Assembly: GCF_900100495.1 (NCBI RefSeq)
Contig: NZ_FNCT01000016.1
Span: forward strand, 1-64,000
Length of the DNA stretch: 64,000 nt
Direction of reading: 5' to 3'
Origin: Pseudomonas benzenivorans
GTDB taxonomy: Bacteria; Pseudomonadota; Gammaproteobacteria; Pseudomonadales; Pseudomonadaceae
Part shown: piece after piece, positions 2,519 to 37,858 of the stretch
How positions within the stretch are numbered: position 1 is the first letter of the stretch
Layout: each line of letters opens with the position of its first letter
Notes under the pieces: generated by a model
Database searches by the model: none
The model's input: only the letters and a program-made list of their open reading frames with translations
What the model was told of the DNA's origin: nothing
Made by a program: the position numbers and the translations under genes

Positions 2519-2538
2519 GCTCTTACTCTCCTGCCTGC

Positions 2539-14135: not shown

Positions 14136-14292
14136 ACCGCGTCCTCTTGGAAAAAGGGCGCCGGAGTGCACCCGTGGTACGGCCCCGGCGTCAGAATCAG
14201 CAGCCCCGGATGACCGACCGGCACGCCGGTCAGCTGCCGGTCACGCTGCCAGGGGTGGCAGCGGACCGGCGAGGGCTCGTGTCATCTTGCGT

Positions 14293-18357: not shown

Positions 18358-18420
18358 CTCGGCACCCTCGTCTTCTCGATGATTCGGGCAGCCGACCCGC
18401 CAGAATCTTTCATAGTGTCG

Positions 18421-18484
18421 ACAATAGAGAGCCACCCTCCCGTGCGCTTCTCATTTGACGTCAGTCACTTTTCTATTGATGACA
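18421..18484 (-). promoter_or_regulatory. AraC-type operator and promoter P1 (hydrolase)
   Basis: Forward-strand half-sites TCATTTGACGTCA (18451-18463) and TCTATTGATGACA (18472-18484) lie exactly 21 bp apart. Read leftward, the -10 candidate TATTGT occupies 18426-18421, 25 bp from the first half-site start. The same geometry occurs at three other promoters in the window. The -10 overlaps TGTCGACAATA, so a second regulator may act here. Confidence 0.75.
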
Positions 18485-20286: not shown

Positions 20287-20350
20287 AAAGTACTAGAGCA
20301 AGCCCCCGTACATGGCACATTGGGCGTCAAAAACTTTTCATTTCATGACT
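20287..20350 (-). promoter_or_regulatory. AraC-type operator and promoter P2 (aer)
   Basis: Half-sites ACATTGGGCGTCA (20317-20329) and TCATTTCATGACT (20338-20350) lie 21 bp apart. Leftward -10 candidate TACTTT is at 20292-20287, at the same 25-bp offset as in P1, P3 and P4. The site lies between aer and the divergent AraC gene and may also autoregulate the latter. Confidence 0.75.
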
Positions 20351-20434: not shown

Positions 20435-21553
20435 ATGACAAAGCTGGTTCGCGCCGCCGTCCTCACCAACTACCTGGAAACAGCCCAGCACCTCGGCCTG
20501 AATCCGTACAACCTGCTGGCCGGAGTCGGCCTGAACAAGGCCATGCTGCAGGATCCCGAGTACCGCATCCCGGTCGATGCCGCGGTGCGCCTGCTCGAGG
20601 ACTCGGCCGCCGCCAGCGGCTGCCAGAACTTCGGCCTGAGCATGGCCGAGTCGCGCCAGCTCTCCGACTTCGGCGCGGTCAGTCTGCTGCTCACCCACCA
20701 GCGCACCCTGCGCGAGGCGCTGCAGGTGGTGGTCCAGTACCGCCATCTGCTCAACGATTCGCTGGCCATCTACGTCGAAGAGGCCGGCAAGATGGTGATC
20801 ATTCGCGAGGAGGTGGTGACCGAGTCACACCTGGTCTGCCGCCAGTCCAACGAGCTGGCCATCGGCGTGATGTTCCGCCTCTGCGCCGCCCTGCTCGGGG
20901 CGCACTGGCACCCCTACAGCGTCAACTTCACCCACCAGGCACCGAGCAACCTGCAACTGCATCGGCGCCTGTTCGGCTGCAAACTGGAGTTCGGCAGCGA
21001 GTTCAACGGCATCGTCTGCCCCGACGCCGACCTGGACGCGACCAATCCCCATGCCGACCCGGCCATGGCGCGCTACGCCCAGCGCTACCTCGACTCCCTG
21101 CAGAGCAGCAACGGCGAGTCGATGCTGTTCGAGGTGCGCAAGGCCATCTACCTGCTGCTGCCGATGGGCCGGGCCACCATCGAGCAGATCGCCCAGACCA
21201 TGGGCATGAACGTGCGCACCCTGCAGCGCCGCCTGAAGGAAGGCGGCAGCACCTTCAACGAGCTGATCAACGACGTGCGCCGTGACCTGGTGATGCGCTA
21301 CCTGGAGAACCCGGACTACTCGCTGGGGCGGATCGCCGACATGCTCGGCTACTCCATGCCGAGCTCCTTCACCCGCTGGTTCATCGCCCAGTTCGGCATG
21401 CCGCCGGCCGCCTGGCGCAGTCCGCGCCGGCAGGCACCGGGCGCGAGCGGCGCAATCAGCGAGCCGGGCGCCGCGGCAACGCCATCCGCTGCGCCAGCAG
21501 CCGATCGAGCAATCGGGTCGGCAGCAGCGCGGCCAGGTACCACATCGGGTTGA
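20435..21553 (+). CDS. AraC family regulator, candidate master of the P1-P4 regulon
   Basis: A 372-residue AraC protein with the Arabinose_bd-type N-terminal sensor (LNPYNLLAGVGLNKAMLQDP onward) and a C-terminal two-HTH domain: TIEQIAQTMGMNVRTLQRRL and YSLGRIADMLGYSMPSSFTR, then the classic RWFIAQFGMPPAAWR. Start ATG 20435 has AGGAA upstream; the longer open frame covers promoter DNA. After the HTH a low-complexity Ala/Pro-rich tail of about 35 residues overlaps the 3' end of the convergent SDR gene by 98 bp. Its position beside P2 makes it the best candidate to bind the four shared operators. The inducer is unknown. Confidence 0.88.
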   Translation: MTKLVRAAVLTNYLETAQHLGLNPYNLLAGVGLNKAMLQDPEYRIPVDAAVRLLEDSAAASGCQNFGLSMAESRQLSDFGAVSLLLTHQRTLREALQVVVQYRHLLNDSLAIYVEEAGKMVIIREEVVTESHLVCRQSNELAIGVMFRLCAALLGAHWHPYSVNFTHQAPSNLQLHRRLFGCKLEFGSEFNGIVCPDADLDATNPHADPAMARYAQRYLDSLQSSNGESMLFEVRKAIYLLLPMGRATIEQIAQTMGMNVRTLQRRLKEGGSTFNELINDVRRDLVMRYLENPDYSLGRIADMLGYSMPSSFTRWFIAQFGMPPAAWRSPRRQAPGASGAISEPGAAATPSAAPAADRAIGSAAARPGTTSG

Positions 21554-25270: not shown

Positions 25271-25900
25271 TTAACGCAAAATCGCGCAGCCGGTGGCCGC
25301 CTGCAGCTCGTCGAAGTCGACGCCTGGCGCCATCTCCACCAGGCGCAGGCCGTCGGCGCCGATGTCCAGCACGGCCAGGTCGCTGATGATCCGGTCGACC
25401 ACGCCGACCCCGGTCAGTGGCAGGTCGCAGCGCTCGAGGATCTTGTGCGCGCCGCCCTTGGCGCAGTGCTCCATCAGCACCACCACGCGCTTGACCCCGG
25501 CGACCAGGTCCATGGCGCCGCCCATGCCCTTGACCAGCTTGCCGGGGATCATCCAGTTGGCCAGGTCGCCCTGCTCCGATACCTGCATGGCGCCGAGCAG
25601 GGCCAGATTGATGTGGCCGCCGCGGATCATCCCGAAGCTCTCGGCGCTGTCGAAGAAGCTGCTGCCCGGCTGGGTGGTGATGGTCTGCTTGCCGGCGTTG
25701 ATCAGGTCGGCGTCGATCTCCTCCTCGCCGGGGAAGGGACCGATGCCGAGCAGGCCGTTCTCGCTCTGCAGCCAGACCTCCATGCCCGCGGGAATGTAGT
25801 TGGCCACCAGGGTCGGCAGGCCGATGCCGAGGTTGACGTAGAAGCCGTCCTGCAGCTCCTGGGCGGCGCGCTGCGCCATTTCTTCGCGAGTCCAAGCCAT
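25271..25900 (-). CDS. atoA: Acetoacetate-type CoA-transferase, subunit B
   Basis: A 209-residue beta subunit of a family I CoA-transferase. The catalytic glutamate is in [13 protein letters not shown], and [18 protein letters not shown] is the usual N-terminal block. With subunit A at 26283-26984 it would move CoA between succinyl- or acetyl-CoA and acetoacetate or another 3-keto acid. Start ATG 25900 is preferred over TTG 25906, with GAGGG upstream. It follows an extra 127-residue ORF by two bases. The stop codon abuts palindromic element copy 2. The exact acyl specificity (atoDA versus scoAB) cannot be read from the sequence. Confidence 0.92.
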
Positions 25901-25902
25901 TC

Positions 25903-26286
25903 TCAATTGCCCTCAGGGTTGCGCCGCGCAGGGCTGGCGTCGATTACCAGGCTCTGGGTGTAGATGCCTGGCAGATGGAGGTTGTCGGCGTCGTCGGCCT
26001 CGGTGTCGCAGTGGTTCAGCGGGCGGATGCCGTCGGTCAGCGGATTGCACAGGGCCAGGCCGAGGGTGCCGGTGAACACCCGGGCGTCCGCCAGGGCGAG
26101 CGCGACCAGGCGCCGGGCGCCGCTGTGCGGCTGGCTCGGCGCGTGCGGCTGGCTGCGCTGGTACCAGGCGTCCATGCCGTCGGGGACGAAGCCGGCGCGC
26201 AGCGCGGACAGGCCGATGCCGAGGTGCCCATGGGTGTCGCCGCGGCTTTCGTCGGTGGCGCGTTGCGCCAGGCTTGGCAGGGTCAT
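25903..26286 (-). CDS. Chimeric CoA-transferase-like small ORF between the two subunits
   Basis: A 127-residue intact frame, coupled by ATGA overlap to subunit A and ending two bases before subunit B. Its N-terminal part ([20 protein letters not shown]) resembles the start of subunit B, with LGIG and the following proline-glycine-methionine block. Its C-terminal part ([20 protein letters not shown]) resembles the end of subunit A (IHLPGIYVQRLVLNASPEKR). The middle is not similar to either, and the catalytic SENG block is missing. It therefore looks like a recombined duplicate of both subunits that has lost catalysis but kept its frame. Whether it is expressed as a protein is unknown. Confidence 0.6.
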
Positions 26287-26984
26287 GATCCGTTCCTCAG
26301 CGTGCGCACTTCGATACGTTTTTCCGGGCTGGCGTTGAGCACCAGGCGCTGCACGTAGATGCCCGGCAGGTGGATCTCGTCCGGCGACAATTCGCCGACT
26401 TCGACGATCTCCTCGACCTCGGCGACGCACACCCGCCCGGCCTTGGCGCACAGCGGGTTGAAGTTGCGTGCGGTCTTGTTGAACATCAGGTTGCCGGCCT
26501 TGTCCGCCACCGCGCCCTTGATCAGCGCCACGTCGGCGGTCAGCGAGCGCTCCATGACGTACCACTCGCCGTCGAACTGGCGGGTCTCCTTGCCCTCGGC
26601 GATCAGCGTGCCGTAGCCGGTGCGGGTGAAGAACGCCGGGATGCCGGCGCCGCCGGCACGCAGCTTCTCGGCCAGGGTGCCCTGAGGGGTGAACTCCAGC
26701 TCCAGCTCGCCGGCCAGGTACTGGCGCTCGAACTCCTTGTTGCCGCCGACGTAGGAGGAAATCATCTTGCCGATCTGCCGGCTGTAGAGCAGCGGGCCGA
26801 GGCCGAAGTCGTCCACCCCGCAGTTGTTGCTGATGATGGTGAAGCCGCGCTTGCCGGTCTCGCGCAGGGCCTCGATCAGCGCCTCGGGGATGCCGCACAG
26901 GCCGAAGCCGCCGGAGGCGATGGTGATGCCGTCGTGGACGATGCCGGCCAGGGCGGCGTGGGCGTCGGGGTAGATCTTGTTCAT
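26283..26984 (-). CDS. atoD: Acetoacetate-type CoA-transferase, subunit A
   Basis: A 233-residue alpha subunit. GITIASGGFGLCGIPEALI and FTIISNNCGVDDFGLG are the family I CoA-transferase N-terminal signatures; the C-terminus has PGIYVQRLVLNASPEKRIE. It acts with subunit B, two genes downstream. The ATG at 26984 follows the PHA synthase stop by 33 bp on the same strand, so it is in the long leftward operon. The product pair would activate or release acetoacetate formed by the BKACE reaction (inference). Confidence 0.92.
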   Translation of the reverse strand: MNKIYPDAHAALAGIVHDGITIASGGFGLCGIPEALIEALRETGKRGFTIISNNCGVDDFGLGPLLYSRQIGKMISSYVGGNKEFERQYLAGELELEFTPQGTLAEKLRAGGAGIPAFFTRTGYGTLIAEGKETRQFDGEWYVMERSLTADVALIKGAVADKAGNLMFNKTARNFNPLCAKAGRVCVAEVEEIVEVGELSPDEIHLPGIYVQRLVLNASPEKRIEVRTLRNGS

Positions 26985-27017: not shown

Positions 27018-28811
27018 TCAGCGCTCCAGCACGTAGCTGCCGGGGGCGGCGCACAGCGGCGGGTACTTGCGCGAGCCGAGCTTCTTCGGCGCCGGCCGGC
27101 TGTCGCCCGAGCGCGCCTGGATCCACGCTCGCCAGTGCGGCCACCAGCTGCCGTCGTGGCGCTCGCCGGCGCCCTGCAGCCAGGCTTGCGGGTCGCTGGC
27201 AGCAGCTGCGGCCGCGTAGAAATGCGACTTGGGATTGCCCGGCGGATTGACCAGGCTCTGCAGGTGGCCGGCGTTGGACAGGACGAAGGTGCTGTCTTCG
27301 CCGAACAGCCGGGCGGTGCCGTAGCAGCCCTGCCAGGGCGTGATGTGGTCGGTGGTGCCGCCGATCACGTAGGCGCCGACCTTGACCTGGCGCATGTCGA
27401 TCGACTCGCCGGCGATCTGCAGCGCCCCCGGGTTGCTGTAGGGGTTCTGCTGGATCAGGTCGAGGTAGTCGGCATGCAATTGCGCCGGCAGCCGCGTGGT
27501 GTCGCTGTTCCAGGCCAGGATGTCGAACGCCGGTGGCTTGTTGCCGAGCAGGTAGTTGTTGACCCAGTAGTTCCAGATCAGGTCGTTGGGCCGCATCCAG
27601 GCGAACATCCGCGCCATGTCCTGGCCGCTGAGCACGCCCTTGCGCCGCGAGCTGGCCTTGGCCGCCCGCAGCGCCGCCGGGGTGGCGAACAGGCCGAGGG
27701 TGGTGTCGTCGAACACCGCCGGCATGTCCAGCACGCACACCGCCCAGCTGGTGCTGGCCACCTTGTGGCCCTCGCCGCGCGCCGCCAGCCAGCCCAGGTA
27801 GGCGGCCAGGGTGATGCCGCCGGAGCAGGAGCCCCACATGTTGACGTCCGGGCTGCCGGTGATCTGCCGCGCCACCTCCACCGCCTGGTCGAGGCACAGC
27901 GCATAGTCGGACAGGCCCCAGTCGCGTTGCTTGGCGGTCGGGTTGCGCCAGCTGATGACGAACAGCTGCACGCCACTGTCCTGGATCCACTGGACCAGGC
28001 TCTTGTCCGGCGACAGGTCGATGGCGTAGTACTTGTTGATCTGCGGCGGCGACATCACCAGCGGCCGGGCATGCACGTCGGGCGTGGTCGGGGCGAACTG
28101 CAGCAGCTCGAACATCTCGTGGCGAAACACCACCTCGCCCTTGGACGCGGCGATGTTCTCGCCCAGCTTGAACGGCGCGCTGTCGACCTGCGACGGCAGC
28201 CCGCGGTTGTGCAGCAGGTCGCTGGAGAACTGCTGCACGCCGCGCACCAGGTTCATGCCGCCGGTGTCGACCAGCTTGCGCAGGGCCGTCGGGTTGGTCA
28301 GCAGCAGGTTGCTCGGCGCCAGCGCATCGACCAGCAGCGAGGCGACGAACTGGGCGCGGCCCTTGTCCAGCGGATCGACATCGGCCGCCTCGATAAAGGC
28401 GTTCAGTTCGCGCCCTCCTGCCAGGTAGCTCTGCATCAGCGCGCGCAGGAACACATTGGAATGCCAGGCCGGGTCGGCGAAGCGCCTGTCCTTCGGGTGC
28501 GGCGCGACGCTGGAGTCGCCGGCGACTATGTCGCGCAGTTGCTTGAGGTAGCCACCGACATGCAGGCCAGCCTGCAGCGGCGTCTTGCCCACGGCCTTGA
28601 ACAGGGAGCCGGCAGCGCCGAGCAGATCGGCCGGGCGCACGCCGAGCAACGGCGTGCCGGCCAGGGTGTGGTGCGCCGCCTTGGCCGCCAGATCCTGCTC
28701 TTGCAGATTCTCCGCCAGCTGCAAGTCCGCGCTTTTGCGACCCTTGCGGCGGGCGGCCGGACGACGCTTGGCGCGGTTCGCCGGTGGGGTGGGCTCAGAT
28801 GCTTTGCTCAT
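27018..28811 (-). CDS. phaC: Poly(3-hydroxyalkanoate) synthase, class II-like
   Basis: A 597-residue PHA synthase. The lipase-like box with catalytic cysteine, WGSCSGG, is at about residue 325; the catalytic aspartate is in IGGTTDHITPW and the histidine in SNAGHLQSLVNPPG. It has the class II length and box rather than the two-subunit class III type. The N-terminus is unusually basic (KRRPAARRKGRK), perhaps binding granules or nucleic acid. No phaZ, phaD or phasin genes are adjacent, unlike the usual pha locus; instead it sits in a catabolic operon between a YeiH-type exporter and a CoA-transferase. It may store excess 3-hydroxyacyl-CoA from the pathway (inference). Confidence 0.9.
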   Translation of the reverse strand: MSKASEPTPPANRAKRRPAARRKGRKSADLQLAENLQEQDLAAKAAHHTLAGTPLLGVRPADLLGAAGSLFKAVGKTPLQAGLHVGGYLKQLRDIVAGDSSVAPHPKDRRFADPAWHSNVFLRALMQSYLAGGRELNAFIEAADVDPLDKGRAQFVASLLVDALAPSNLLLTNPTALRKLVDTGGMNLVRGVQQFSSDLLHNRGLPSQVDSAPFKLGENIAASKGEVVFRHEMFELLQFAPTTPDVHARPLVMSPPQINKYYAIDLSPDKSLVQWIQDSGVQLFVISWRNPTAKQRDWGLSDYALCLDQAVEVARQITGSPDVNMWGSCSGGITLAAYLGWLAARGEGHKVASTSWAVCVLDMPAVFDDTTLGLFATPAALRAAKASSRRKGVLSGQDMARMFAWMRPNDLIWNYWVNNYLLGNKPPAFDILAWNSDTTRLPAQLHADYLDLIQQNPYSNPGALQIAGESIDMRQVKVGAYVIGGTTDHITPWQGCYGTARLFGEDSTFVLSNAGHLQSLVNPPGNPKSHFYAAAAAASDPQAWLQGAGERHDGSWWPHWRAWIQARSGDSRPAPKKLGSRKYPPLCAAPGSYVLER

Positions 28812-28863: not shown

Positions 28864-29874
28864 TCACCAGGCCCAATGCAGAAGGAGCAGCACCAGGGCG
28901 ACCAGGAAGACCGTCTCGCCGACCATCAGCAGGATCGGCCTGATGCCCACCGCCGCCAGCTCCTTGAGCTGGGTCTTCATGCCCAGGGCGCTGATGGCCA
29001 CCACCAGGCACCAGCGCGACAACTCGTTGACCCCGCCCTGGACCACCTGCGGCACCCAGCCGGTGCTGTTGACGCAGGCCAGGACCACGAAGCCGACGGC
29101 GAACAGCGGCAGCAGCGGCGGGCGCTTGCCCGTCGGGTCGGCGCCCTGCAGGCGGGTGATCATGGCTGCGGCGACTATCACCGGCACCAGCATGGCCACG
29201 CGCATCAGCTTGACCACGGTGGCGGTGTCGCCGGTCTCCGGCGACATGCTGTAGCCGGCGCCGACCACCTGGGCCACGTCGTGGATGGTGGCGCCGAGGA
29301 ACACCCCGGCCTCCTGCGGCGACAGGCCCGCCCAGTTGGCGATCATCGGGTAGAGGATCATCGCCAGGGTCGACAGCGCCGAGACGCCGATCACGGTGAA
29401 CAGGGTGGCGCGTTCCTTCTGCGGATGGCTGGGCAGCGCGGCGGCCAGTGCCAGGGCCGCCGAGGCGCCGCAGATGGCGGTGGCGCCGCCGGTGAGCATG
29501 CCGAACAGGCGCTGGAAGCCCAGCGCCTTGGCCGCCACCACCGAGACCAGGATGGTCACCACCACCAGGGTCACCACCAGCGCCAGCGGCTTCCAGCCGA
29601 GGCCGGCGATCTGCTCCAGGGTGATGCGCATGCCCAGCAGGGCCACGCCGATGCGCAGCACGCTGCGTGCGGTGAACTCGATGCCGGCCTTGCACTTGCC
29701 GTCGGCGGCGAGGAAGTTCAGCGACATGCCCAGCAGCAAGGCGAACAGCATCACCGGCGCGCCGTAGTGCTCGGAGAGGAAGGTCGCCGCCGCCGCGACT
29801 ATCAGGCTGACGACGAAGCCCGGCGCCAGTTCGCGTACGCGGCTGTGGATGCTGGCGACAGCGATGCTGCTCAT
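28864..29874 (-). CDS. YeiH family (UPF0324) putative sulfate/sulfite exporter
   Basis: A 336-residue membrane protein with about 10 hydrophobic helices, including APVMLFALLLGMSLNFLA, GMLTGGATAICGASAALA and HDVAQVVGAGY, which are signatures of the YeiH/UPF0324 family. Members near sulfonate-degradation genes have been proposed as exporters of sulfate or sulfite (family knowledge; direct proof is limited). Start ATG 29874 overlaps the stop of the Rieske gene by four bases. In this operon with TauD-type dioxygenases, which in the prototype release sulfite, the exporter is a clue to substrate chemistry (inference). Confidence 0.88.
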   Translation of the reverse strand: MSSIAVASIHSRVRELAPGFVVSLIVAAAATFLSEHYGAPVMLFALLLGMSLNFLAADGKCKAGIEFTARSVLRIGVALLGMRITLEQIAGLGWKPLALVVTLVVVTILVSVVAAKALGFQRLFGMLTGGATAICGASAALALAAALPSHPQKERATLFTVIGVSALSTLAMILYPMIANWAGLSPQEAGVFLGATIHDVAQVVGAGYSMSPETGDTATVVKLMRVAMLVPVIVAAAMITRLQGADPTGKRPPLLPLFAVGFVVLACVNSTGWVPQVVQGGVNELSRWCLVVAISALGMKTQLKELAAVGIRPILLMVGETVFLVALVLLLLHWAW

Positions 29875-30197
29875 GGTGCGGATTCCTCGGGGGCGATGAC
29901 GATGAACACCTGGCCGTCGATCAGCTCGACCGGGTAGTTGGCGACCTTGAGCGCGGTCGAGTTGAGCAGATAGCCGCTGGCCAGGTCGAAGCGCAGGCCG
30001 TGGGCGCAACACTGGATCACCCGGCCATCCAGGCGGCCGCCACAGAGCGACGAGCCCTGGTGCGGACAGCTGTCGTCGATGGCGTAGAGCTGGCCGGCGA
30101 CATTGAACAGCGCCAGGCTCTTGCCCGCCTGCTCGACCAGCGCGCGACCGCCGGGGGCCGGCACCTGCTCGGCGGCAACCGCGATGCGCCGGCTCAC
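29871..30197 (-). CDS. Rieske [2Fe-2S] ferredoxin-like protein
   Basis: A 108-residue soluble protein. The two Rieske cluster boxes are CPHQGSS (CxH) and CCAHGLRF (CxxH), correctly spaced. It resembles the ferredoxin components of ring-hydroxylating dioxygenases and the small subunit of nitrite reductase. It starts with GTG at 30197, overlapping the upstream stop by GTGA, and its stop overlaps the YeiH start. No Rieske oxygenase large subunit or reductase is near, so its redox partner is unclear; electron supply to another enzyme in the operon is a guess. Confidence 0.85.
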   Translation of the reverse strand: MSRRIAVAAEQVPAPGGRALVEQAGKSLALFNVAGQLYAIDDSCPHQGSSLCGGRLDGRVIQCCAHGLRFDLASGYLLNSTALKVANYPVELIDGQVFIVIAPEESAP

Positions 30198-30856
30198 GCG
30201 GGCTGCCCCGCGGAACGCGCCAGTGCCTCGGCCATGGCGCCGAGCAGCACCTCGGCCGGCTGCGCGCCGGCTACCGCCAGGCGCCGATCGAAGACGAAAT
30301 AGGGCACGCCATGGGCGCCCATGCCGGCATCGGCGCCGACGAAGGGGCTGGCATCGCCACGCAGGCTGGTGGCCAGCTGCACCGGCTCGAAGCCACAGGA
30401 GGCGGCGATGGCCAGCAAGGTGGCGCCATCGCCCAGGTCCTCGCCGCGCTGGAAATAGGCGGCGAACAGCCGCTCCAGCAGGGCGTCGCGCTGTGCCGCA
30501 GTGCCCAGGTTGGCGGCGCAGGCCAGCAGGCGATGGGCGTCGGCGGTGTTGGGCATGCGCGCGATGGCGGCCAGGGCGATGTCCACCCCGGCGGCGGCCG
30601 CGGCCTGCTGCACCTGGGCCTGACGCAGGCGCACGGCCTGCTCGCTGCCCAGGCGCTGGCGATAGAACTCGGCGAAGGGCACGCCCTGCACCGGCAGCTC
30701 GGGCAGCAACTGCACGCCGTGCCAGACCAGCTCGACCTCGAGCTCCGGCTGGCTGGCGCGCAGCTGGGGCAGGGCGCGCTCCAGCTGGCGCTTGCCGATC
30801 AGGCACCAGGGGCAGATGAAGTCGAAGAACAGGTCGATGCGCAGCGCAGGGTTCAT
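30194..30856 (-). CDS. DsbA-family FrnE-like oxidoreductase
   Basis: A 220-residue cytoplasmic thioredoxin-fold protein with the active site FDFICPWCLIGKRQLE near the N-terminus, the FrnE/2-hydroxychromene-isomerase-like type. The cis-proline loop is in GAHGVPYFVFDRRLAVAGAQ. No signal peptide is present. FrnE-type proteins act on thiols or polyketide/aromatic substrates, and several are annotated as isomerases. Its start overlaps the MFS stop by four bases and its stop overlaps the Rieske start, so these genes are tightly coupled. The substrate is unknown. Confidence 0.85.
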   Translation of the reverse strand: MNPALRIDLFFDFICPWCLIGKRQLERALPQLRASQPELEVELVWHGVQLLPELPVQGVPFAEFYRQRLGSEQAVRLRQAQVQQAAAAAGVDIALAAIARMPNTADAHRLLACAANLGTAAQRDALLERLFAAYFQRGEDLGDGATLLAIAASCGFEPVQLATSLRGDASPFVGADAGMGAHGVPYFVFDRRLAVAGAQPAEVLLGAMAEALARSAGQPA

Positions 30857-32181
30857 GCCTGGGCCTCCGCGGCAGCCTCGACGGCCTTCTCCTCGACGCC
30901 CGCGCCGTTCAGGCGGGCCATGTCATCGTGGTAGTGGCGCTTGGCGAAGAAGAACACCGCGGCGGCCGCGATGCTGATCAGCGGCACCAGCTGGAAGGCG
31001 TTGTCCAGACCGATGATGTCGGACACCCGGCCGGTGATGAACGGCCCCGGTGCCAGGCCCAGCAGGTTGTTGGCCAGGGTCAGGGTGGCGAAGGCGGTAG
31101 CGTGCACCGAATGGTGGGTGAGGTTGGCGACCATGGCCCCGGCCGGCCCCGAGGTGCCGGCGGCGATCAGCATGCCCAGGCAGATCAGCACCAGCTGGGG
31201 CATGCCCACCGGCAGGGCGAAGGCCAGCGACAGCAGCAGGCAGCTGCCCAGGCAGAAGGCGATGGCCAGGCTGATCTTGCGGTCCGGACGGTTGCGGCAC
31301 ATGCGGTCGCTAAGCATGCCGCAGAGGATCATCCCGGCGCCGCTGCACAGCACGATGATCGCCGCCACCGCGCCGGCCTTGTCGGTGCCCATTTCGTAGT
31401 AGCGATTCAGGTAGCTGGGCATCCAGACGATCACGGTGCCGCCGACGAACAGCTGCAGGCCGCTGCCGACATAGGCGCCGATCACCGAGCGGCTGGAATA
31501 CAGGGTGCGCAGCGGCCGGGTGACCGTGGCGGTGACCTTGTTGGCGGCGGCGGCCGCCCGCTGCGGGACGATGCGCGCTTCGCGGACGATGATCGGGTAG
31601 AGCGTGGCCAGCAGCAGGCCGAACAGTGCCATGCCGGCGAACGCCCAGCGCCAGCCGAGGTGCTCGGCCAGCACGCCGCCGGCAGCCATGCCCAGCACCG
31701 AGCCGAACATGCCGCCGGAGATGAAGGCGCCGGACAGGGTGGCGCGCATCTCGCGCGGGAACACCGCCACCACCACGGCGATGCCGACGCTGCCATAGGC
31801 GGCCTCGCCGACCCCGACCAGGAAGCGCGCGACGAACATCTGCTCATAGTTCTCCGCCAGCGCGCAGCCGAGGGTCGCCAGGCTCCACAAGGTGGCCATC
31901 AGCGCCAGGCTCTTGACCCGGCCGAAGCGGTCGGCCAGCAGCGACAGCGGGAAGGTCAGCAGGCCGACCATCAGCGCGACTATGCCGCTGAGCAGGCCGA
32001 GCTGGCTGTCGCTGAGCGCCCATTCGCCCTTGAGCAGCGGGAAGACGGCGTTGAGCACCTGGCGCGACATGTAGTCGGAAATCAACAGGCCGAAGGTCAG
32101 GGCGAAGACGATCCAGGCATAGTTGCGCGGAATACCGATCGAGGTGTCTTCACCGTCGTCGCTGATGTGGTGTGCGGCCAT
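30853..32181 (-). CDS. MFS transporter, anion:cation symporter-like
   Basis: A 442-residue transporter with 12 predicted helices. Motif A-like LADRFGRVKSLALMATLWS follows helix 2, and GVGEAAYGSVGIAVVVAVFP is typical of the spinster/ACS-type MFS group that takes up organic acids. Start ATG 32181 has GAGGAGG upstream; the longer open frame is not family-like. It heads the coupled MFS-FrnE-Rieske-YeiH set, 192 bp after BKACE1 and separated from it by hairpins. It is the probable importer of the operon substrate (inference). Confidence 0.87.
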   Translation of the reverse strand: MAAHHISDDGEDTSIGIPRNYAWIVFALTFGLLISDYMSRQVLNAVFPLLKGEWALSDSQLGLLSGIVALMVGLLTFPLSLLADRFGRVKSLALMATLWSLATLGCALAENYEQMFVARFLVGVGEAAYGSVGIAVVVAVFPREMRATLSGAFISGGMFGSVLGMAAGGVLAEHLGWRWAFAGMALFGLLLATLYPIIVREARIVPQRAAAAANKVTATVTRPLRTLYSSRSVIGAYVGSGLQLFVGGTVIVWMPSYLNRYYEMGTDKAGAVAAIIVLCSGAGMILCGMLSDRMCRNRPDRKISLAIAFCLGSCLLLSLAFALPVGMPQLVLICLGMLIAAGTSGPAGAMVANLTHHSVHATAFATLTLANNLLGLAPGPFITGRVSDIIGLDNAFQLVPLISIAAAAVFFFAKRHYHDDMARLNGAGVEEKAVEAAAEAQA

Positions 32182-32373: not shown

Positions 32374-33426
32374 TCAGCCGCGCTGCGGCACGCCCTTCTG
32401 GCCCGCCTTGCGGTTCGGCGCCATGCCGTTGGCCAGCAGGGTTTCCTCGACGCTGTTGTACTGCACGCCGATCTTGTAGATCTCGCGCGCTTCCTTGCCA
32501 TTGGCGATTTCACGACCCAGCTCGTGCGCCACGCGCACGGTCTGCTGGATCTGCTGCACCGAGCTGAAACGCTTGCCGTGCTGGTCGATGATGGTGTCTT
32601 CGATGCCGACGCGCGGGTGCAGGCCCATGGCCAGCGCCATGGCGTTGAACGGCAGAACGTTCTTCAGCAGCGATTCGGCGGTAATGGTGCAACCGTCCGG
32701 TGCGCGGTGGATGAAGTTGAAGAAGTTGAACGGGTTGGGGCCGTCGAAACCGCCGCCGATGCCGATCCAGGTCAGGTTCAGCGGGCCCATGTAGACGCCC
32801 TTGCGCACCAGGCGCTCGAGGGTTTCCAGGGCATGCATGCCGGTCAGCTGGAAGTGCGGCTGGATGCCGTTGGCGCACAGGCGCTTCAAGTGCTCGGCGA
32901 CCCAGCCCGGGCCGGCCGGCACGGTCATCTCGCTGTAGGCGGCCTGGTAGGCCGGGTTGGCCAGGGAGGTGCCTTCCAGGTATTCCGGATAGAGCAGCTC
33001 CATGATGTTCATCTGGGTGGTGTTGATGGCGATGGTGACCTGATCCGGCCGCGGCGTCAGCTCGGCCAGCAAGTGGCGGGTGTCGTCGCTCAGCCAGAGG
33101 GCGCCTTCGCCTTCGCTTTCCGGGGCGAAGGAAATCGAGCCGCCGACCTGGATGATCATGTCCGGCACCGCCGCGCGCACGCCGGCGATCAGTTCGTTGA
33201 ACTTGGACAGGCGCTTGGAACCCTTGCCGTCCAGCTCGCGCACGTGCAGGTGCAGCACGGTGGCGCCTGCCTCGTAGCAATCCACGGCCTTCTGCACCTG
33301 CTCTTCCATGGTCAGCGGAATGTCTTCCGGGAAGTCTTCCGGCATCCACTCGGGGCCGTAGGGGGCGACGGTGATCACCACCTTTTCCATATTTTCCGGG
33401 TGCAGGGAATCGTCGAAGAATTGCAT
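32374..33426 (-). CDS. Beta-keto acid cleavage enzyme (BKACE, DUF849), paralogue 1
   Basis: A 350-residue TIM-barrel enzyme of the BKACE/DUF849 family. The metal-binding His-x-His motif is in VLHLHVREL (His59, His61), preceded by ITVAPYGPEW. The family condenses a beta-keto acid with acetyl-CoA, giving acetoacetyl-CoA and the CoA ester or amine product; known members act on 3-keto-5-aminohexanoate and dehydrocarnitine. The substrate pocket cannot be assigned here. It follows TauD1 by 76 bp. Paralogue 2 at 35761-36819 has the same motif positions and the same TauD-BKACE order. Confidence 0.9.
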   Translation of the reverse strand: MQFFDDSLHPENMEKVVITVAPYGPEWMPEDFPEDIPLTMEEQVQKAVDCYEAGATVLHLHVRELDGKGSKRLSKFNELIAGVRAAVPDMIIQVGGSISFAPESEGEGALWLSDDTRHLLAELTPRPDQVTIAINTTQMNIMELLYPEYLEGTSLANPAYQAAYSEMTVPAGPGWVAEHLKRLCANGIQPHFQLTGMHALETLERLVRKGVYMGPLNLTWIGIGGGFDGPNPFNFFNFIHRAPDGCTITAESLLKNVLPFNAMALAMGLHPRVGIEDTIIDQHGKRFSSVQQIQQTVRVAHELGREIANGKEAREIYKIGVQYNSVEETLLANGMAPNRKAGQKGVPQRG

Positions 33427-33502
33427 GGTCAGGGTCCTCAGTAGGTTCTTGTAAAAGCTGCCCGACCCGGAACGGTAGGACCGGATCAGGCAAAACGGGG
33501 GG

Positions 33503-34351
33503 TCAGAACGTCTTGTCGCCGATGATCCCGGCGCGTTCCATCTTGCGATGGCAGGGCGGGTAGTCCATCACCGCGTAGTGCTGGGTGCTGCGGTTGTCCC
33601 AGATCGCCACGCTGTTGGGCTTCCAGCGCCAGCGCACCTGGTACTCGGGGATGTACGCCTGGCTGATCAGGTAGCGCAGCAGGTCGGCAGCTCCGGGGTT
33701 GGCGTCCTGGCCGAAGCGCACCCGCTGCGGGGTGTGGTAGTTGCTGAAATGGGTGGTGAAGGCGTTGACGAACAGCACCTTCTCGCCGGTTTCCGGATGG
33801 GTGCGCACCACCGGGTGCTCGGCGTCCGGGTACTGGGCCTTGAGCGCCAGGCGCTTGTCGATCGGCATGGCCGCGCCGAAGCTCGCCTCGATACTGTGGC
33901 GCGCGCGCAGGTCGGCGATCTTCGCCTTGACGTCGGCCGGCAGGTTCTCGTAGGCCACCACCATGTTCGCCCACATGGTGTCGCCGCCGACCGGCGGGCA
34001 CTCGATGCAGCGCAGCACGCAGCCCAGCGGCGGCGCCTCGCGCCAGGTGGCATCGGTGTGCCAGGCGTTCTCGTAGCGGTCCATCGGCTGGTCCGGGCGC
34101 TTGTAGATCTGCACCAGGCCCGGGTGCTCCGGGTCGCTGCCGGCCACCGGGTGGTCTTCCAGCTCGCCGAAGCGGCGGGCGAAGGCCACATGCTCGGCGC
34201 GGCTGAAGTCCTGGTCACGCAGGAACAGCACGCGGTGCTGGAGCAACTGGGCGCGGATCGCCGCGAACAGGCCGTCGTCATGGATGGCGTCGGCGAGGTT
34301 GACGCCGATCAGCTCGGCGCCGATGTTGTAGGTCAGTTGTTCGACTTGCAT
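33503..34351 (-). CDS. TauD/TfdA-family 2-oxoglutarate-dependent dioxygenase, paralogue 1
   Basis: A 282-residue Fe(II)/2-oxoglutarate dioxygenase. The iron facial triad is His98 and Asp100 in AWHTDATW and the distal histidine in STQHYAVMDY (about His258); the 2-oxoglutarate-binding arginine is in CHRKMERAG. The family includes taurine dioxygenase, alkylsulfatase AtsK and phenoxyacid dioxygenases, which hydroxylate the carbon next to a leaving group. Substrate cannot be read from sequence. It aligns end to end without obvious gaps with the second copy at 36866 (28 of the first 40 residues identical). It is co-directional with qor upstream (15 bp) and BKACE1 downstream. Confidence 0.92.
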   Translation of the reverse strand: MQVEQLTYNIGAELIGVNLADAIHDDGLFAAIRAQLLQHRVLFLRDQDFSRAEHVAFARRFGELEDHPVAGSDPEHPGLVQIYKRPDQPMDRYENAWHTDATWREAPPLGCVLRCIECPPVGGDTMWANMVVAYENLPADVKAKIADLRARHSIEASFGAAMPIDKRLALKAQYPDAEHPVVRTHPETGEKVLFVNAFTTHFSNYHTPQRVRFGQDANPGAADLLRYLISQAYIPEYQVRWRWKPNSVAIWDNRSTQHYAVMDYPPCHRKMERAGIIGDKTF

Positions 34352-34365
34352 GGCGATTGCCCTTC

Positions 34366-35346
34366 TCAGATGACGAAGATCGACGAGCCGGTGGTCTTGC
34401 GCGACTCCAGGTCGCGGTGCGCCTGCACGGCGTCCTGCAGGGCGTAGTGCTGGTTGATCTCGATCTTGATCTGGCCGCTGCCGACCAGGTCGAACAGCTC
34501 GCCGGCCAGCGCGGCCTTCTCGGCCGGATCGGCGATGTAGTCGGCCAGGGCCGGACGGGTCATGTACAGCGAGCCTTTCATGGCCAGCAGCTGCGGGTTG
34601 AACGCTTCGATCGGGCCGGAAGCGGTGCCGACGCAGACCAGCAGGCCGCGGCGCTTGAGCGAATCCAGCGAACCCATGAAGGTGTTCTTGCCGACGCTGT
34701 CGAACACCACATTGACGCCGACGCCGTTGGTCAGCTCACGCACCCGCTTGGCGACGTCTTCGTGGCTGTAGTTGATGGTGTAGTCGCAGCCGTGGGCCCG
34801 CGCCACTTCGGCCTTGGCCTCGCTGGACACGGTGCCGATCACGGTCAGGCCGAGCAGCTTGGCCCACTGCGAGACGATCAGGCCGACGCCACCGGCGGCG
34901 GCGTGCAGGAGGATGCTGTCGCCCGGCTTGAAGTCATAGATGCGGCGCATCAGATAGGACGAGGTCAGGCCGCGCATGGTCATGGCTGCGGCGGTCTCGA
35001 AGGCGATGGTTTCCGGCAGCTTGATCAGCGGCGCGGCCGGGATCAGGCGTTCGGTGCTGTAGGCGCCGAGGGTATTGAGAAAGCCGGTATAGGTGACGCG
35101 GTCGCCGACCACCACGTTGCTCACGCCCTCGCCGACCGCCTGGACCACGCCGGAAGCTTCCACGCCCATGCCATTGGGCAGCGGGATCGGGTAGGTGCCG
35201 TTGCGGAAATAGGTGTCGGCGTAGTTCAGGCCGACGGCGACATGACGCAGCCGAACCTCGCCCGGGCCGGGTTCGCCGACCTCGACGTCTTCGTAGCGCA
35301 GGACCTCGGGACCACCGGTTTCATAGAAGCGTACGGCTTTGGCCAT
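34366..35346 (-). CDS. Zinc-free quinone oxidoreductase (QOR-like)
   Basis: A 326-residue medium-chain dehydrogenase of the NADPH:quinone reductase class. It starts MAKAVRFYETGGPEVLRYED and has the nucleotide-binding motif LHAAAGGVGLIVSQWAKLLG; the structural-zinc cysteine cluster of alcohol dehydrogenases is absent. Start ATG 35346 gives the family length; TTG 35361 is less likely. It is the first gene behind promoter P3. It may reduce a quinone or an enone/acrylyl intermediate in the TauD-BKACE route (inference). Confidence 0.9.
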   Translation of the reverse strand: MAKAVRFYETGGPEVLRYEDVEVGEPGPGEVRLRHVAVGLNYADTYFRNGTYPIPLPNGMGVEASGVVQAVGEGVSNVVVGDRVTYTGFLNTLGAYSTERLIPAAPLIKLPETIAFETAAAMTMRGLTSSYLMRRIYDFKPGDSILLHAAAGGVGLIVSQWAKLLGLTVIGTVSSEAKAEVARAHGCDYTINYSHEDVAKRVRELTNGVGVNVVFDSVGKNTFMGSLDSLKRRGLLVCVGTASGPIEAFNPQLLAMKGSLYMTRPALADYIADPAEKAALAGELFDLVGSGQIKIEINQHYALQDAVQAHRDLESRKTTGSSIFVI

Positions 35347-35401
35347 GTCTCTTTTCTCCAATCTGCGATCTGGGCGAATTGCATCGATTTGCGTTGATTG
35401 G

Positions 35402-35465
35402 ACTGTAGGCCGCCGGCTGCCCCGACGCTTCTCATCAAACGACAGCGACTTTTCATTTCATGACA
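35402..35465 (-). promoter_or_regulatory. AraC-type operator and promoter P3 (qor-TauD1-BKACE1 operon)
   Basis: Half-sites TCATCAAACGACA (35432-35444) and TCATTTCATGACA (35453-35465) lie 21 bp apart. Leftward -10 candidate TACAGT is at 35407-35402, at the standard 25-bp offset, 56 bp before the qor start. Confidence 0.8.
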
Positions 35466-35493
35466 TGGACTCGCTGCGGCGGCCAAGGAAAAT

Positions 35494-35641
35494 GCTATGT
35501 CCCAGTTATGTGTTGCATGAGAGGTTGCGCGTTTGTGGGAGCGGATTCATCCGCGAAAATCTTCGAAACGCCGACAACATTTCGCGGCTGAAGCCGCTCC
35601 CACGAGGCTGCGGTGGGCTCAACATTTAACGGGTACATAGC
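35494..35641. repeat. Nested inverted-repeat element B with internal REP pair
   Basis: The 22-bp arms (35494-35515 and inverted 35620-35641) match those of element A in sequence type and spacing. Inside is a full REP palindrome, GTGGGAGCGGATTCATCCGC (35535) with the inverse GCGGCTGAAGCCGCTCCCAC (35584-35603). Confidence 0.75.
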
Positions 35642-35645
35642 CAAA

Positions 35646-35710
35646 CAAAAAGCCGCCGCCGCGGCCCATCCCGTGGATCACCCACAGAACCGGTCGCGCG
35701 CGGCGGCGGC
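35646..35710 (-). terminator. Terminator after BKACE2
   Basis: Read leftward, GCCGCCGCCGCG pairs with CGCGGCGGCGGC and is followed by TTTTTG. The perfect 12-bp stem has a long loop. It separates the TauD2-BKACE2 operon from P3. The stretch 35711-35760 shows nothing else. Confidence 0.65.
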
Positions 35711-35760
35711 AGCAGCAACGGGCGGCTCTACCTGCATGCTGCAAGCGAGGCGCCCGGGCA

Positions 35761-36819
35761 TCAGCCGTGCAGCAGGAAGCCCTTCTGGCCCGGCTTGCGG
35801 TTGGGCGCGAAGCCGTTCTTCGCCAGGGTCTCGTCGGCGTCCTGGTAGAAGGTGCCGATCTTGTAGATCTCGCGCGCCTCCTGGCCGTTGGCCACCTCGC
35901 GACCGAACTCGCGGGAAATGCGTACCAGCTGCTCGATCTGCTCGACGGTGGAGATCTTGCGCGAACGGTCCTGGGTCCAAATGTTGTCCTCGATGCCGCA
36001 ACGCACGTGCAGGCCCAGGGCCATGGCCAGCATGTTCAGCGGCAGGGTGTTGAGCATGGAGGTTTCCAGGGTCAGCACCGAGCCGTCCGGGCAGGCACGC
36101 ACGAAGTTGGCCAGGTTGTAGATGTTCGGCGCCTCGAAGCCGCCGCCGATGGCCACCCAGGTGAGGATCAGCGGCACGTTGCACACGCCGCGGCGCATCA
36201 TGCGCTCGACCGTCTCCAGCTGGGCGATGTTGGCCAGCTGGAAGTGGGTCTGGATCCGGTTGTCGCTCAGGCGCTTGATGTGCTCCTCGACCCAGGCCGG
36301 ACCGGCCGGGATGGTCATCTCGCGGTAGGCCTCGTAGCCGGCGCTACCCACGTCCAGCGAGGTGCCGCGGACGTCGGCGGGGCACATCTGCTCGACCACG
36401 TTCATCTGGTTGGTGTTGATGGCGATGGTCACCTGGTCCGGGGTCGGCTGGATCTCGGCCAGCATGTGGCGGGTGTCGTCGCTCAGCCACTTGGCGACGT
36501 CGCCGTCGTTTTCCGGGGCGAAGGAGATCGAGCCGCCGATCTGCAGGATCATCTCCGGGCAGGCCTCGCGGATGCCGGCCACCAGCTGGTTGGTGAAGGA
36601 CAGGCGCTTGGAGCCCTTGCCGTCGGCTTCACGGCCATGCACGTGGAGCACGCTGGCGCCGGCGTTGTAGCAGTCGACGGCCTTCTGGATCTGCGCATCC
36701 AGGGAGACCGGGATGTCCTCGGGGAAGTCGGACGGCTGCCACTCCGGACCGTAGGGGGCGGCGGTGATGACCAGTTTCTGTATGTTTTCGACAAACAGCG
36801 AACCATCGATGAAGTTCAT
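35761..36819 (-). CDS. Beta-keto acid cleavage enzyme (BKACE, DUF849), paralogue 2
   Basis: A 352-residue BKACE homologue, collinear with paralogue 1. The metal motif is VLHVHGRE with His59 and His61 at the same positions. The N-terminal half aligns closely (ITAAPYGPEW, DFPEDIPV), whereas the segment after the metal site and the C-terminal substrate-side loops differ more, suggesting related but not identical substrates. It follows TauD2 by 46 bp and is probably the last gene of the P4 operon, before a terminator. It should form acetoacetyl-CoA from a beta-keto acid and acetyl-CoA (family reaction). Confidence 0.9.
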   Translation of the reverse strand: MNFIDGSLFVENIQKLVITAAPYGPEWQPSDFPEDIPVSLDAQIQKAVDCYNAGASVLHVHGREADGKGSKRLSFTNQLVAGIREACPEMILQIGGSISFAPENDGDVAKWLSDDTRHMLAEIQPTPDQVTIAINTNQMNVVEQMCPADVRGTSLDVGSAGYEAYREMTIPAGPAWVEEHIKRLSDNRIQTHFQLANIAQLETVERMMRRGVCNVPLILTWVAIGGGFEAPNIYNLANFVRACPDGSVLTLETSMLNTLPLNMLAMALGLHVRCGIEDNIWTQDRSRKISTVEQIEQLVRISREFGREVANGQEAREIYKIGTFYQDADETLAKNGFAPNRKPGQKGFLLHG

Positions 36820-36865
36820 GGCACTTTCCTCGAATTAAGAAGGGGGTGGTGGTGCTCGACGGGGG

Positions 36866-37714
36866 TCAGAACGGCTTGTCGCCGATGATCGCGGCGCGCT
36901 CCATCTTGCGATGGCAGGCCGGGTAATCCATGACCGCGTAGTGCTGGGTGCTGCGGTTGTCCCAGATGGCGATGCTGTTGGGCTGCCAGCGCCAGCGCAC
37001 CTGGTACTCGGGAACGAAGGCCTGGCTCACCAGGTAGCGCAGCAGGTCGTTGGCGCCGGGGTTGGCGTCCTGGCCGAAGCGCACGCGATCCTTGGTGTGG
37101 TAGTTGGTGAAGTGGGTGGTGAAAGCGTTGACGAACAGCACCTTCTCGCCGGTTTCCGGATGGGTGCGCACCACCGGGTGCTCGGAGTCCGGGTACTCGG
37201 CCTTCATCGCCAGGCGCTTGTCGATCGGCATGGCGGCGGCGAAGGACGACTCGAAGCTGTGGTTGGCGCGCAGGTCCTCGATCTGCTGCTTGATCGCCTG
37301 CGGCAGGCGCTCGTAGGCCAGCACCATGTTGGCCCACATGGTGTCGCCGCCCACGGTTGGGCACTCCACGCAGCGCAGCACGCAGCCCATGGCCGGGGTC
37401 GGGCGCCAGGTACCGTCGGCATGCCAGGCGTTCTCGTAGCGGTCGATCGGCTGGTCGGGACGCTTGTAGATCTGCACCAGGCCCGGCGCTTCCGGATGGC
37501 TCGGCGCCATCGGGTGGTCTTCCAGCTGACCGAAACGCCGGGCGAAGGCCACGTGATCCGGACGCGAGATGTCCTGGTCACGCAGGAACAGTACCTTGTG
37601 CTGCAGCAGCAGGCCCTTGATCTCGTTGAACAGGCCGTCGTCGCGGACGGCATCGGCGAGGTTCACGCCGACCAGTTCGGCGCCGATACTGCTAGTAAGT
37701 TGTTCTACGCGCAT
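36866..37714 (-). CDS. TauD/TfdA-family 2-oxoglutarate-dependent dioxygenase, paralogue 2
   Basis: A 282-residue protein, the same length as paralogue 1. The iron ligands His98 and Asp100 (AWHADGTW) and the distal histidine (STQHYAVMDY) are intact, as is the arginine in CHRKMERAA. Start ATG 37714 (MRVEQLTSSIGAEL) has GAGGAG about nine bases upstream and equals the start of the paralogue; 45 extra upstream codons contain the promoter. It is the first gene behind P4. Differences next to the metal site (THTD-type versus HADG) may reflect a different substrate. Confidence 0.92.
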   Translation of the reverse strand: MRVEQLTSSIGAELVGVNLADAVRDDGLFNEIKGLLLQHKVLFLRDQDISRPDHVAFARRFGQLEDHPMAPSHPEAPGLVQIYKRPDQPIDRYENAWHADGTWRPTPAMGCVLRCVECPTVGGDTMWANMVLAYERLPQAIKQQIEDLRANHSFESSFAAAMPIDKRLAMKAEYPDSEHPVVRTHPETGEKVLFVNAFTTHFTNYHTKDRVRFGQDANPGANDLLRYLVSQAFVPEYQVRWRWQPNSIAIWDNRSTQHYAVMDYPACHRKMERAAIIGDKPF

Positions 37715-37794: not shown

Positions 37795-37858
37795 AATTTA
37801 GGAGCGAGGGGCCGCGCCGACCTTTCATTCGGCGACAGCGTTTTCTCATTTCATGACA
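37795..37858 (-). promoter_or_regulatory. AraC-type operator and promoter P4 (TauD2-BKACE2 operon)
   Basis: Half-sites TCATTCGGCGACA (37825-37837) and TCATTTCATGACA (37846-37858) lie 21 bp apart. Leftward -10 candidate TAAATT is at 37800-37795, at the same 25-bp offset as P1-P3. Confidence 0.8.

Follow-up and report, generated by a model that had tools for sequence, protein, structure and literature searches.

Paired TauD dioxygenase and DUF849 genes in Pseudomonas benzenivorans: a candidate regulon for a hydrophobic sulfonate

Results

Gene content of the locus

We analyzed a 64,000-nucleotide stretch of the Pseudomonas benzenivorans genome (RefSeq assembly GCF_900100495.1, contig NZ_FNCT01000016.1, positions 1 to 64,000; below, the window), in which two neighboring, co-directional gene pairs lie on the minus strand between 32374 and 37714. 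Each pair encodes a TauD-type Fe(II)/2-oxoglutarate dioxygenase and a zinc enzyme of the DUF849 or BKACE (beta-keto acid cleavage enzyme) family. A preliminary description of the window had recognized these pairs, and both the open reading frames (ORFs) and the Pfam scores confirm them: BKACE1 and BKACE2 reach 205.8 and 199.1 bits (PF05853; gathering score, 24.8), and TauD1 and TauD2 reach 223.7 and 217.7 bits (gathering score, 27). The pairing was seen correctly, but the gene for a quinone oxidoreductase (QOR) between the pairs was overlooked, and the unit is QOR-TauD-BKACE rather than TauD-BKACE. The core features are the following.

32374-33426, minus strand: BKACE1, DUF849-type zinc enzyme of 350 amino acids (Pfam BKACE; Gln193 at the catalytic Glu position, Thr195 at the Tyr position)
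33503-34351, minus strand: TauD1, Fe(II)/2-oxoglutarate dioxygenase of 282 amino acids (Pfam TauD; closest solved chain, 5vn6_A)
34366-35346, minus strand: QOR, zinc-less quinone oxidoreductase of the medium-chain dehydrogenase/reductase (MDR) family, first gene of operon 1 (NF008024, 370.1 bits; cut-off, 348)
35430-35465, minus strand: operator, a direct repeat, before QOR (pattern match)
35761-36819, minus strand: BKACE2, 352 amino acids, from a clade other than that of BKACE1 (Gln and Ala at the catalytic Glu and Tyr positions)
36866-37714, minus strand: TauD2, 282 amino acids from an inner ATG (Pfam TauD; the listed ORF starts at 37849)
37823-37858, minus strand: operator before TauD2-BKACE2 (pattern match)

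The QOR start given here is an ATG identified by reading the sequence, whereas the ORF list places it at 35361. The protein, by the same reading, lacks zinc ligands and belongs to the NADPH:quinone reductase subfamily of MDR. The two TauDs have, as described earlier, a common length of 282 residues and the same metal ligands (H98, D100, and H258 in each copy); likewise, both BKACEs carry H59 and H61.

Distribution and gene order of the module

Relatives were sought in a genus sample (199 genomes for the BKACE search, 198 for the TauD search) and in a phylum sample of 398 genomes. Below, G-numbers denote sampled genomes (G000 being the window's own), L-numbers denote fetched loci, and C-numbers denote contigs. 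BKACE was present in 31 of 199 genus genomes and TauD in 31 of 198, and it is the same 31 that carry both; the phylum sample had 16 genomes with BKACE and 14 with TauD (13 with both, three with BKACE alone, and one with TauD alone). The preliminary description had proposed a functional pairing of the two genes and had named genomes in which they do not co-occur as evidence against it. Such genomes number four in the phylum sample, and the identical 31 genomes of the genus sample speak for the pairing. These co-occurrence statistics, like those on the sorA operators below, were computed ignoring the relatedness of genomes.

The best 80 of 489 confirmed relatives of BKACE1 supplied a set of loci (L005-L084), on which all counts out of 80 rest. 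The order QOR-TauD-BKACE was found in 79 of them, the remaining locus being cut by a contig end. Since the same 31 genomes hold both genes and the order is constant in 79 of 80 loci, the pairing goes beyond local chance. Genes for a DsbA-like protein, a Rieske-type ferredoxin, and a carrier of the MFS family flank the module in all 80 loci, a YeiH gene in 77, an AraC gene in 71, and CoA-transferase genes in seven, counts that are limited by the many loci that end early. The second pair, TauD2-BKACE2, recurs in four of the 80 loci and in G082. Among the matches listed, the nearest locus with a species name is that of P. linyingensis, whose BKACE1 is 97% identical. In the window, the genes downstream of the core module are these.

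30853-32181, minus strand: MFS transporter (start assigned to an ATG by reading the sequence; listed ORF to 32367)
30194-30856, minus strand: DsbA-like protein (profile and locus comparison)
29871-30203, minus strand: small Rieske-type ferredoxin (locus comparison)
28864-29877, minus strand: putative sulfate (sulfite) exporter of the YeiH/PF03601 type (Pfam)
27018-28811, minus strand: PhaC-like polyester synthase (four orthologs elsewhere stand alone behind the same operator type)
25271-26984, minus strand: 3-oxoacid CoA-transferase (subunit A, 26283-26984, tested; subunit B, 25271-25906, by position and eye)

The core module is found in Pseudomonas, Acinetobacter, and Aeromonas. Plasmids of other proteobacteria (Azoarcus, Caballeronia, and Novosphingobium) and of actinobacteria (Rhodococcus, Tsukamurella, and Streptomyces) carry it as well, with a different gene order in Caballeronia and Streptomyces. 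In Diaphorobacter, QOR-TauD is followed about 7.6 kb on by a 311-residue BKACE with the canonical Glu and Tyr. We found no description of a TauD-BKACE module in the open-access literature searched, from which a paper behind a subscription would escape; this agrees with the earlier statement that no described pathway with such a pairing was known to its author.

History of the two pairs

The two pairs had been described as a duplicated module. This does not hold: the TauD copies are 80.1% identical and the BKACE copies 60.5%, so they are not a simple duplication, and the BKACEs come from different clades. In a quick tree of 49 BKACEs, BKACE2 falls in a 22-row branch that does not contain BKACE1 (Shimodaira-Hasegawa-like approximate likelihood ratio test, SH-aLRT, 100), and the 20-row branch of BKACE1 has an SH-aLRT of 92; inside the BKACE2 branch, the node that unites BKACE2 with a plasmid copy from Azoarcus and the copies of G049 and G129 reaches only 84. 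A recent tandem duplication was unsupported by the quick trees of both BKACE and TauD. An Azoarcus cassette carries a BKACE2-like gene (81.5% identity to BKACE2) behind QOR-TauD, a third BKACE type (branch, 99) stands behind QOR-TauD in G027, G082, G194, and G578, and the TauD1 of G082 is 96% identical to that of the window yet adjoins a third-clade BKACE. Different BKACE types have thus been exchanged beside a near-constant QOR and TauD, and the two pairs of the window look assembled rather than recently copied.

Operator and regulon

Each pair was said earlier to lie behind an operator of the same type. Both sites exist, but the operator of the first pair precedes QOR, not TauD1. Half-sites of the form TGTC-N5-ATGA, 21 bp apart, make up the operator as a direct repeat. 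The pattern TGTCATGAAATGARAANNCGCTGTCGNNNRATGARA, written from the two sites of the window and allowed up to three mismatches, matches only these two in the window (35430-35465 and 37823-37858, both minus strand), and there was no match in 100 shuffles. A third site in the genome, with three mismatches, lies on contig C29 upstream of an acyl-CoA ligase gene, at 142 bp from its start codon. On a score scale with a maximum of 31, on which at least 22 was counted as operator present, the operator precedes QOR in all 79 testable loci of L005-L084; among 13 other loci it was present in six, namely the window itself (twice), three genus genomes, and, borderline at 22, the Novosphingobium locus L087. 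The strict pattern occurred in 27 of 149 genus genomes (all 25 with BKACE, plus G108 and G135 without it) and the relaxed pattern in all 31 BKACE-positive genomes, with no match of the reversed control in either case. As background, we scored 600 random stretches drawn from 49 fetched loci, which had mostly been selected for the module or its sites; 581 of the stretches had a score of 20 or lower.

More operator sites precede the serine hydrolase operon, DUF1329 paralogs, a gene for a methyl-accepting chemotaxis protein, and PhaC-like genes, and some have no sensible gene behind them (e.g., L189, L193, L201, and L202). A common direct-repeat operator before several operons thus accompanies an AraC gene in the cluster, as in a regulon. 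The corresponding features of the window are listed below.

20435-21553, plus strand: AraC-type regulator, probable operator-binding protein (proximity; half-site before its own gene)
20335-20349, minus strand: perfect operator half-site upstream of the AraC gene
18593-20158, minus strand: chemoreceptor-like gene beside the AraC gene (homologs of 48 to 50% identity carry an operator in G021, G002, and G167)
18449-18484, minus strand: weaker operator upstream of the serine hydrolase operon (relaxed pattern, one mismatch)
17791-18435, minus strand: serine hydrolase (PF06821)
15691-17670, minus strand: DUF1302 protein
14293-15651, minus strand: DUF1329 protein
13065-14171, minus strand: YCF48-like protein (similarity to an annotated Azoarcus gene)
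10599-13037, minus strand: RND/MMPL-type transporter (below NCBIfam cut-offs)

The AraC protein is the probable ligand of the operator, because its gene is near the cluster and has a half-site before it. Likewise, since homologs of the chemoreceptor gene carry the operator, the regulon may extend to taxis toward the substrate.

Some sites deserve separate mention. Near position 3373 of L189 (G196), a relaxed-pattern operator with no mismatches stands in a fetched stretch that holds no gene of the set. G135 (L165) and G108 (L166) have the operator and no BKACE or TauD match; in G135 a QOR gene follows it, in what looks like a decayed cassette. In L087, upstream of 12001, a half-site like TGTCATGAAATG precedes QOR, the full score being only 22 of 31; going by this half-site, the operator may be older than the gammaproteobacteria. 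DUF1329 paralogs (66 to 70% identity) lie behind the operator in seven genus genomes (L194, L196, L197, L199, L200, L204, and L205), with no DUF1302 match beside them in the stretches fetched. A 312-residue BKACE with the canonical Glu and Tyr (L203:5158-6096, G167) lies near an operator-preceded PhaC-like gene. Sulfatase genes near operator-like sites (L162:1624-5340 and L163:7636-9315, in G131 and G002) were left aside, as the orientation of the sites did not fit.

Sulfite as a probable product

In G129, an operator site precedes genes for a molybdopterin oxidoreductase and a cytochrome c, and the oxidoreductase is a SorA sulfite dehydrogenase by NCBIfam equivalog (659.7 bits; cut-off, 600). 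At 1e-80, sorA was found in 12 of 198 genomes, 11 times as a close homolog (85 to 100% identity; nine of these genomes are BKACE positive) and once at 44%. We scanned 350 bp upstream of sorA (265 bp in one genome) for the best operator score. It was at least 22 in eight of the nine BKACE-positive genomes (G129, 29; G137, 27; G114, 26; G021, 24; G151, 25; G172, 26; G089, 26; G070, 22) and in none of the three BKACE-negative ones (G038, 15; G079, 17; G136, with the distant homolog, 16), and shuffles of these upstream stretches gave best scores of 18 to 21. Of all the evidence for sulfite as a product, we give most weight to the operators before sorA. The YeiH protein of the window operon scores 246.7 bits with Pfam (cut-off, 24.5). 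SorA in the regulon and YeiH in the operon would make sulfite the product and hence point to desulfonation by TauD.

Active site of TauD

The pocket of TauD was compared in 22 relatives, aligned to Escherichia coli TauD. D100, H258, R269, and T125 are kept in all 22, and H98 is invariant; Arg266 and Thr126 of E. coli TauD are the residues that bind 2-oxoglutarate. The equivalents of His70 and Arg270 are also present in 22 of 22, as are those of Phe159 and Phe206, and Ser158 is kept in 16. His70 and Arg270 contact taurine in the E. coli enzyme, where Asp94, Asn95, and Ser158 have roles as well (PMC9304159). The family, the ligands of iron and 2-oxoglutarate, and the His70/Arg270 equivalents are thus shared with E. 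coli TauD (PDB 1gqw and others). In contrast to that enzyme, the module TauDs have Ala, Val, or Leu in the Tyr73 column (22 of 22) and mostly Arg in the Asn95 column, which adjoins an alignment gap (Arg in 15 of 22, Asn in one), and they stand in an acyl-CoA gene context. They also miss the taurine dioxygenase cut-off of NF007104 (246.6 and 253.7 bits; cut-off, 313). Such a pocket would fit a sulfonate without the amine of taurine. Chain 5vn6, labeled taurine dioxygenase in the PDB at what is a family-level assignment, matches TauD1 over its full length with 565.1 bits and amounts to a solved near ortholog; we take its source to be Burkholderia ambifaria.

Among the other matched solved chains are the alkylsulfatase AtsK and the sulfate ester dioxygenase Rv3406, and the operon holds a sulfate exporter-like gene, as might be expected if the TauDs followed an AtsK-like route that releases sulfate and an aldehyde from alkyl sulfates. 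However, AtsK (135.8 bits) and Rv3406 (147.5 bits) score below taurine dioxygenases (185.8 bits), and SorA in the regulon favors sulfite over sulfate. We therefore consider the use of alkyl sulfates very improbable.

Active site of BKACE

The residue columns of 27 BKACEs were aligned through profile matches to 2y7d and 8rio. The zinc ligands H59, H61, and E276, together with Arg272, are kept in all 27, and Asp277 is kept in 26. In contrast to solved BKACE chains, with which BKACE1 and BKACE2 have the Pfam family, the His/His/Glu zinc ligands, and the conserved Arg and Asp in common, the two proteins are longer (350 to 352 residues against 275 to 334) and carry Gln for the catalytic Glu and Thr or Ala for the Tyr. 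The column of the catalytic Glu (E171 of PdKce) holds Gln in 23 of 27 proteins, Met in three, and Ala in one; that of the Tyr (Y173 of PdKce) holds Tyr in 10 of 27, while BKACE1 has Thr there and BKACE2 has Ala. The Glu is kept in both further BKACEs of the window's genome, on contigs C10 and C39; one of these has the Tyr, and the carnitine-type one has Phe, so that loss of the Tyr alone says little. Replacing Glu171 of PdKce with Leu is reported to abolish activity (PMC11961710). With Gln for the catalytic Glu in both copies, the canonical beta-keto acid cleavage of the preliminary description becomes doubtful, although it remains likely, judging from the retained ligands, that BKACE1 and BKACE2 act near the zinc on an oxo acid. 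Both fall below NCBIfam equivalog cut-offs, and an AlphaFold2 model of BKACE1 built from 16 sequences had a low mean pLDDT (predicted local distance difference test) of 59.3.

Other parts of the DUF849 family offer precedents. Group G7 of Bastard et al. comprises, as reported in PMC4922564, 139 proteins inactive on every tested substrate, and a clade with an altered active site, such as that of BKACE1 and BKACE2, could sit there. BsfD (9zsc), an enzyme of flavophos biosynthesis, is described in PMC12871164 as a DUF849 enzyme that has left BKACE chemistry, and it lacks the Tyr; it differs from BKACE1 and BKACE2 in retaining the Glu, by our alignment, and in making a phosphonate.

An oxidative step followed by canonical, acetyl-CoA-dependent beta-keto acid cleavage, with two specificities and with a betaine or carnitine-like compound as substrate, would account for the BKACE family membership, the zinc ligands, the CoA-transferase in the window, and the acetoacetate-CoA ligase gene that adjoins the module of Streptomyces (L090). 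It has to contend with Gln, Met, or Ala for the catalytic Glu in 27 of 27 proteins, given the effect reported for the Glu-to-Leu exchange, and with the single Asn in the amine-side Asn95 column of the TauDs. Furthermore, the same genome has a carnitine locus of its own on contig C10 (L126:5048-7828), in which a separate BKACE gene is followed by genes for an L-carnitine dehydrogenase (635.7 bits; cut-off, 414) and for a thioesterase-like protein; the gene of a GbdR-like regulator lies close by. Neither a carnitine dehydrogenase nor the thioesterase was among the genes scanned at the module locus. We set aside a carnitine or gamma-butyrobetaine route for the module as unlikely, both because of the separate locus on C10 and because its TauDs are of the taurine dioxygenase type; known carnitine degradation was the alternative raised earlier. 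The broader scheme for betaine-like compounds appears improbable.

Candidate genes for the carbon chain

In G057 and G128, the cluster continues in the order serine hydrolase, DUF1302, DUF1329, YCF48, RND, acyl-CoA dehydrogenase, and acyl-CoA ligase. Orthologs of the acyl-CoA ligase (72 to 78% identity, and the query itself) are present in 27 of the 31 BKACE-positive genomes, being missing from G027, G042, G049, and G194; the gene has an internal TGA in G021 and G045. None of 22 BKACE-negative controls has the ortholog: 21 have only a paralog (about 61 to 64% identity), and one has nothing. PhaC orthologs at 1e-280 occur in eight of 198 genomes, all of them BKACE positive; phaC is part of the operon in three of them (G000, G027, and G082), has an operator of its own in G077, G088, G089, and G172 (scores of 26 to 31), and has a weak one in G114 (21). 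The acyl-CoA, PhaC, and CoA-transferase genes, along with the acetoacetate-CoA ligase gene next to the Streptomyces module, would together serve the carbon catabolism of something with an acyl chain.

At the near end of the window (944-4917) lie genes for a BktB-type thiolase, a 3-hydroxybutyryl-CoA dehydrogenase, a TetR protein, and a second AraC protein. In G082, acyl-CoA dehydrogenase and acyl-CoA ligase genes come after the same set; the ligase gene of the window's genome is on C29.

The surroundings of the module might also be read as an operon for the detoxification or degradation of quinones or aromatics, with TauD and BKACE acting on ring-cleavage products. The family name of QOR, the ferredoxin-like and DsbA-like genes, and aromatic-acid MFS models among the weak matches could be cited for it, as could what lies near the module in several loci: carboxymuconolactone decarboxylase-family genes in L088, L089, and L091 and, in L087, a VOC-family gene at a distance of about 6 kb. 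Yet no ring-hydroxylating oxygenase is named in the annotated loci, and the extended cluster closes with acyl-CoA ligase and acyl-CoA dehydrogenase. Of all the explanations weighed here, this one seems to us the least probable.

Discussion

On the evidence of gene content, operators, and pocket residues, we think it moderately probable that the TauD-BKACE pairs of P. benzenivorans belong to a catabolic regulon under AraC control, through which a hydrophobic aliphatic sulfonate would serve as a carbon source. In such a regulon, the RND/DUF1302/DUF1329 system and the MFS carrier would handle the compound, which the serine hydrolase might release from an ester. As the regulon content and the pocket residues suggest, TauD1 or TauD2 would hydroxylate the sulfonate-bearing carbon with 2-oxoglutarate and O2, giving sulfite and an aldehyde or ketone; if this carbon is beta to a carboxylate, the product would be a beta-oxo acid. 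QOR, by analogy with the zinc-less MDR family, may reduce a conjugated C=C bond of a product, and the BKACE-like zinc enzyme would cleave or rearrange the oxo acid, possibly by a chemistry different from that of canonical BKACEs. Acetoacetate, if formed, would pass to the CoA-transferase and thiolase; the acyl-CoA ligase and acyl-CoA dehydrogenase would take up the chain for beta-oxidation, with any surplus going to PhaC. Sulfite could be exported by YeiH or, in some relatives, oxidized by SorA with cytochrome c. The two TauD-BKACE pairs might each serve a different chain type or isomer.

In uniting desulfonation with the oxidation and export of sulfite, the candidate regulon would resemble the degradation of taurine and other small sulfonates with a sulfite dehydrogenase and an exporter. 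In contrast to those pathways, the acyl-CoA ligase and dehydrogenase, PhaC, and the RND/DUF1302/DUF1329 genes of the candidate regulon suggest a larger, hydrophobic substrate.

Several observations weigh against this interpretation. Close SorA homologs are absent from 22 of the 31 BKACE-positive genomes, including the window's own; in G015, which is BKACE positive, the best score before sorA is 16; the sorA operators are weaker than those of QOR; and the sorA frame is broken in G070. YeiH misses its NCBIfam cut-off (167.1 bits; cut-off, 232.6), its assignment as a putative sulfate exporter comes from its family, and it accompanies BKACE also where no TauD adjoins (L092 and L093). The His70 and Arg270 equivalents may bind a carboxylate in other TauD-family enzymes. 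Of the 13 loci outside L005-L084, seven score below 22 for the operator (L085, L086, L088-L091, and L102), and in G045, QOR-TauD and BKACE are about 1.1 Mb apart, with an acyl-CoA dehydrogenase gene after TauD. Finally, acetoacetate formation is uncertain, given how the active site of the BKACEs deviates from the canonical arrangement.

Part of this evidence would be accommodated if the TauDs hydroxylated or desaturated a hydrophobic carboxylic acid without a sulfonate, with QOR and BKACE processing the product and SorA recruited for other reasons, e.g., sulfite stress. Many acids are substrates of TauD-family enzymes, a plain fatty-acid-like compound would suit the acyl-CoA ligase, acyl-CoA dehydrogenase, and PhaC, and the scarcity of close SorA homologs would be no surprise. 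On the other hand, the distribution of sorA operators (eight of nine BKACE-positive genomes against none of three BKACE-negative ones), YeiH in 77 of 80 loci, and both sulfonate anchors invariant in all 22 TauDs are less readily explained in this way, and we regard a sulfonate-free substrate as unlikely.

The preliminary description as a whole is partly supported. Its oxidative removal of a group as the first step is strengthened and, through SorA, YeiH, and the kept sulfonate anchors, made specific to sulfite, whereas its canonical beta-keto acid cleavage is weakened. Its two-step route appears too short, as the pathway seems to include QOR as well as the acyl-CoA ligase, the acyl-CoA dehydrogenase, and the CoA-transferase.

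More speculatively, the module may represent a dedicated and widespread pathway for lipophilic sulfonates, such as natural sulfonolipids or sulfonated fatty-acid-like compounds, in which TauDs with an enlarged pocket desulfonate the substrate to beta-oxo acids and the Gln-for-Glu clade of DUF849 carries out a cleavage new to the family. We put this forward tentatively, as a possibility that we ourselves rather doubt. No link of surfactant-type substrates or sulfonolipids to the module was found in the open-access literature searched.

Well-known sulfonate pathways cover small hydrophilic sulfonates. In soils, organic sulfur is present mainly as sulfate esters and sulfonates (PMC4267179). If our interpretation is correct, a hydrophobic-sulfonate regulon would supply enzymes for surfactant-like and lipid-like sulfonates. 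Likewise, proteins annotated as "3-keto-5-aminohexanoate cleavage protein" may harbor new chemistry, for which the DUF849 clade with its altered active site would offer a test case.

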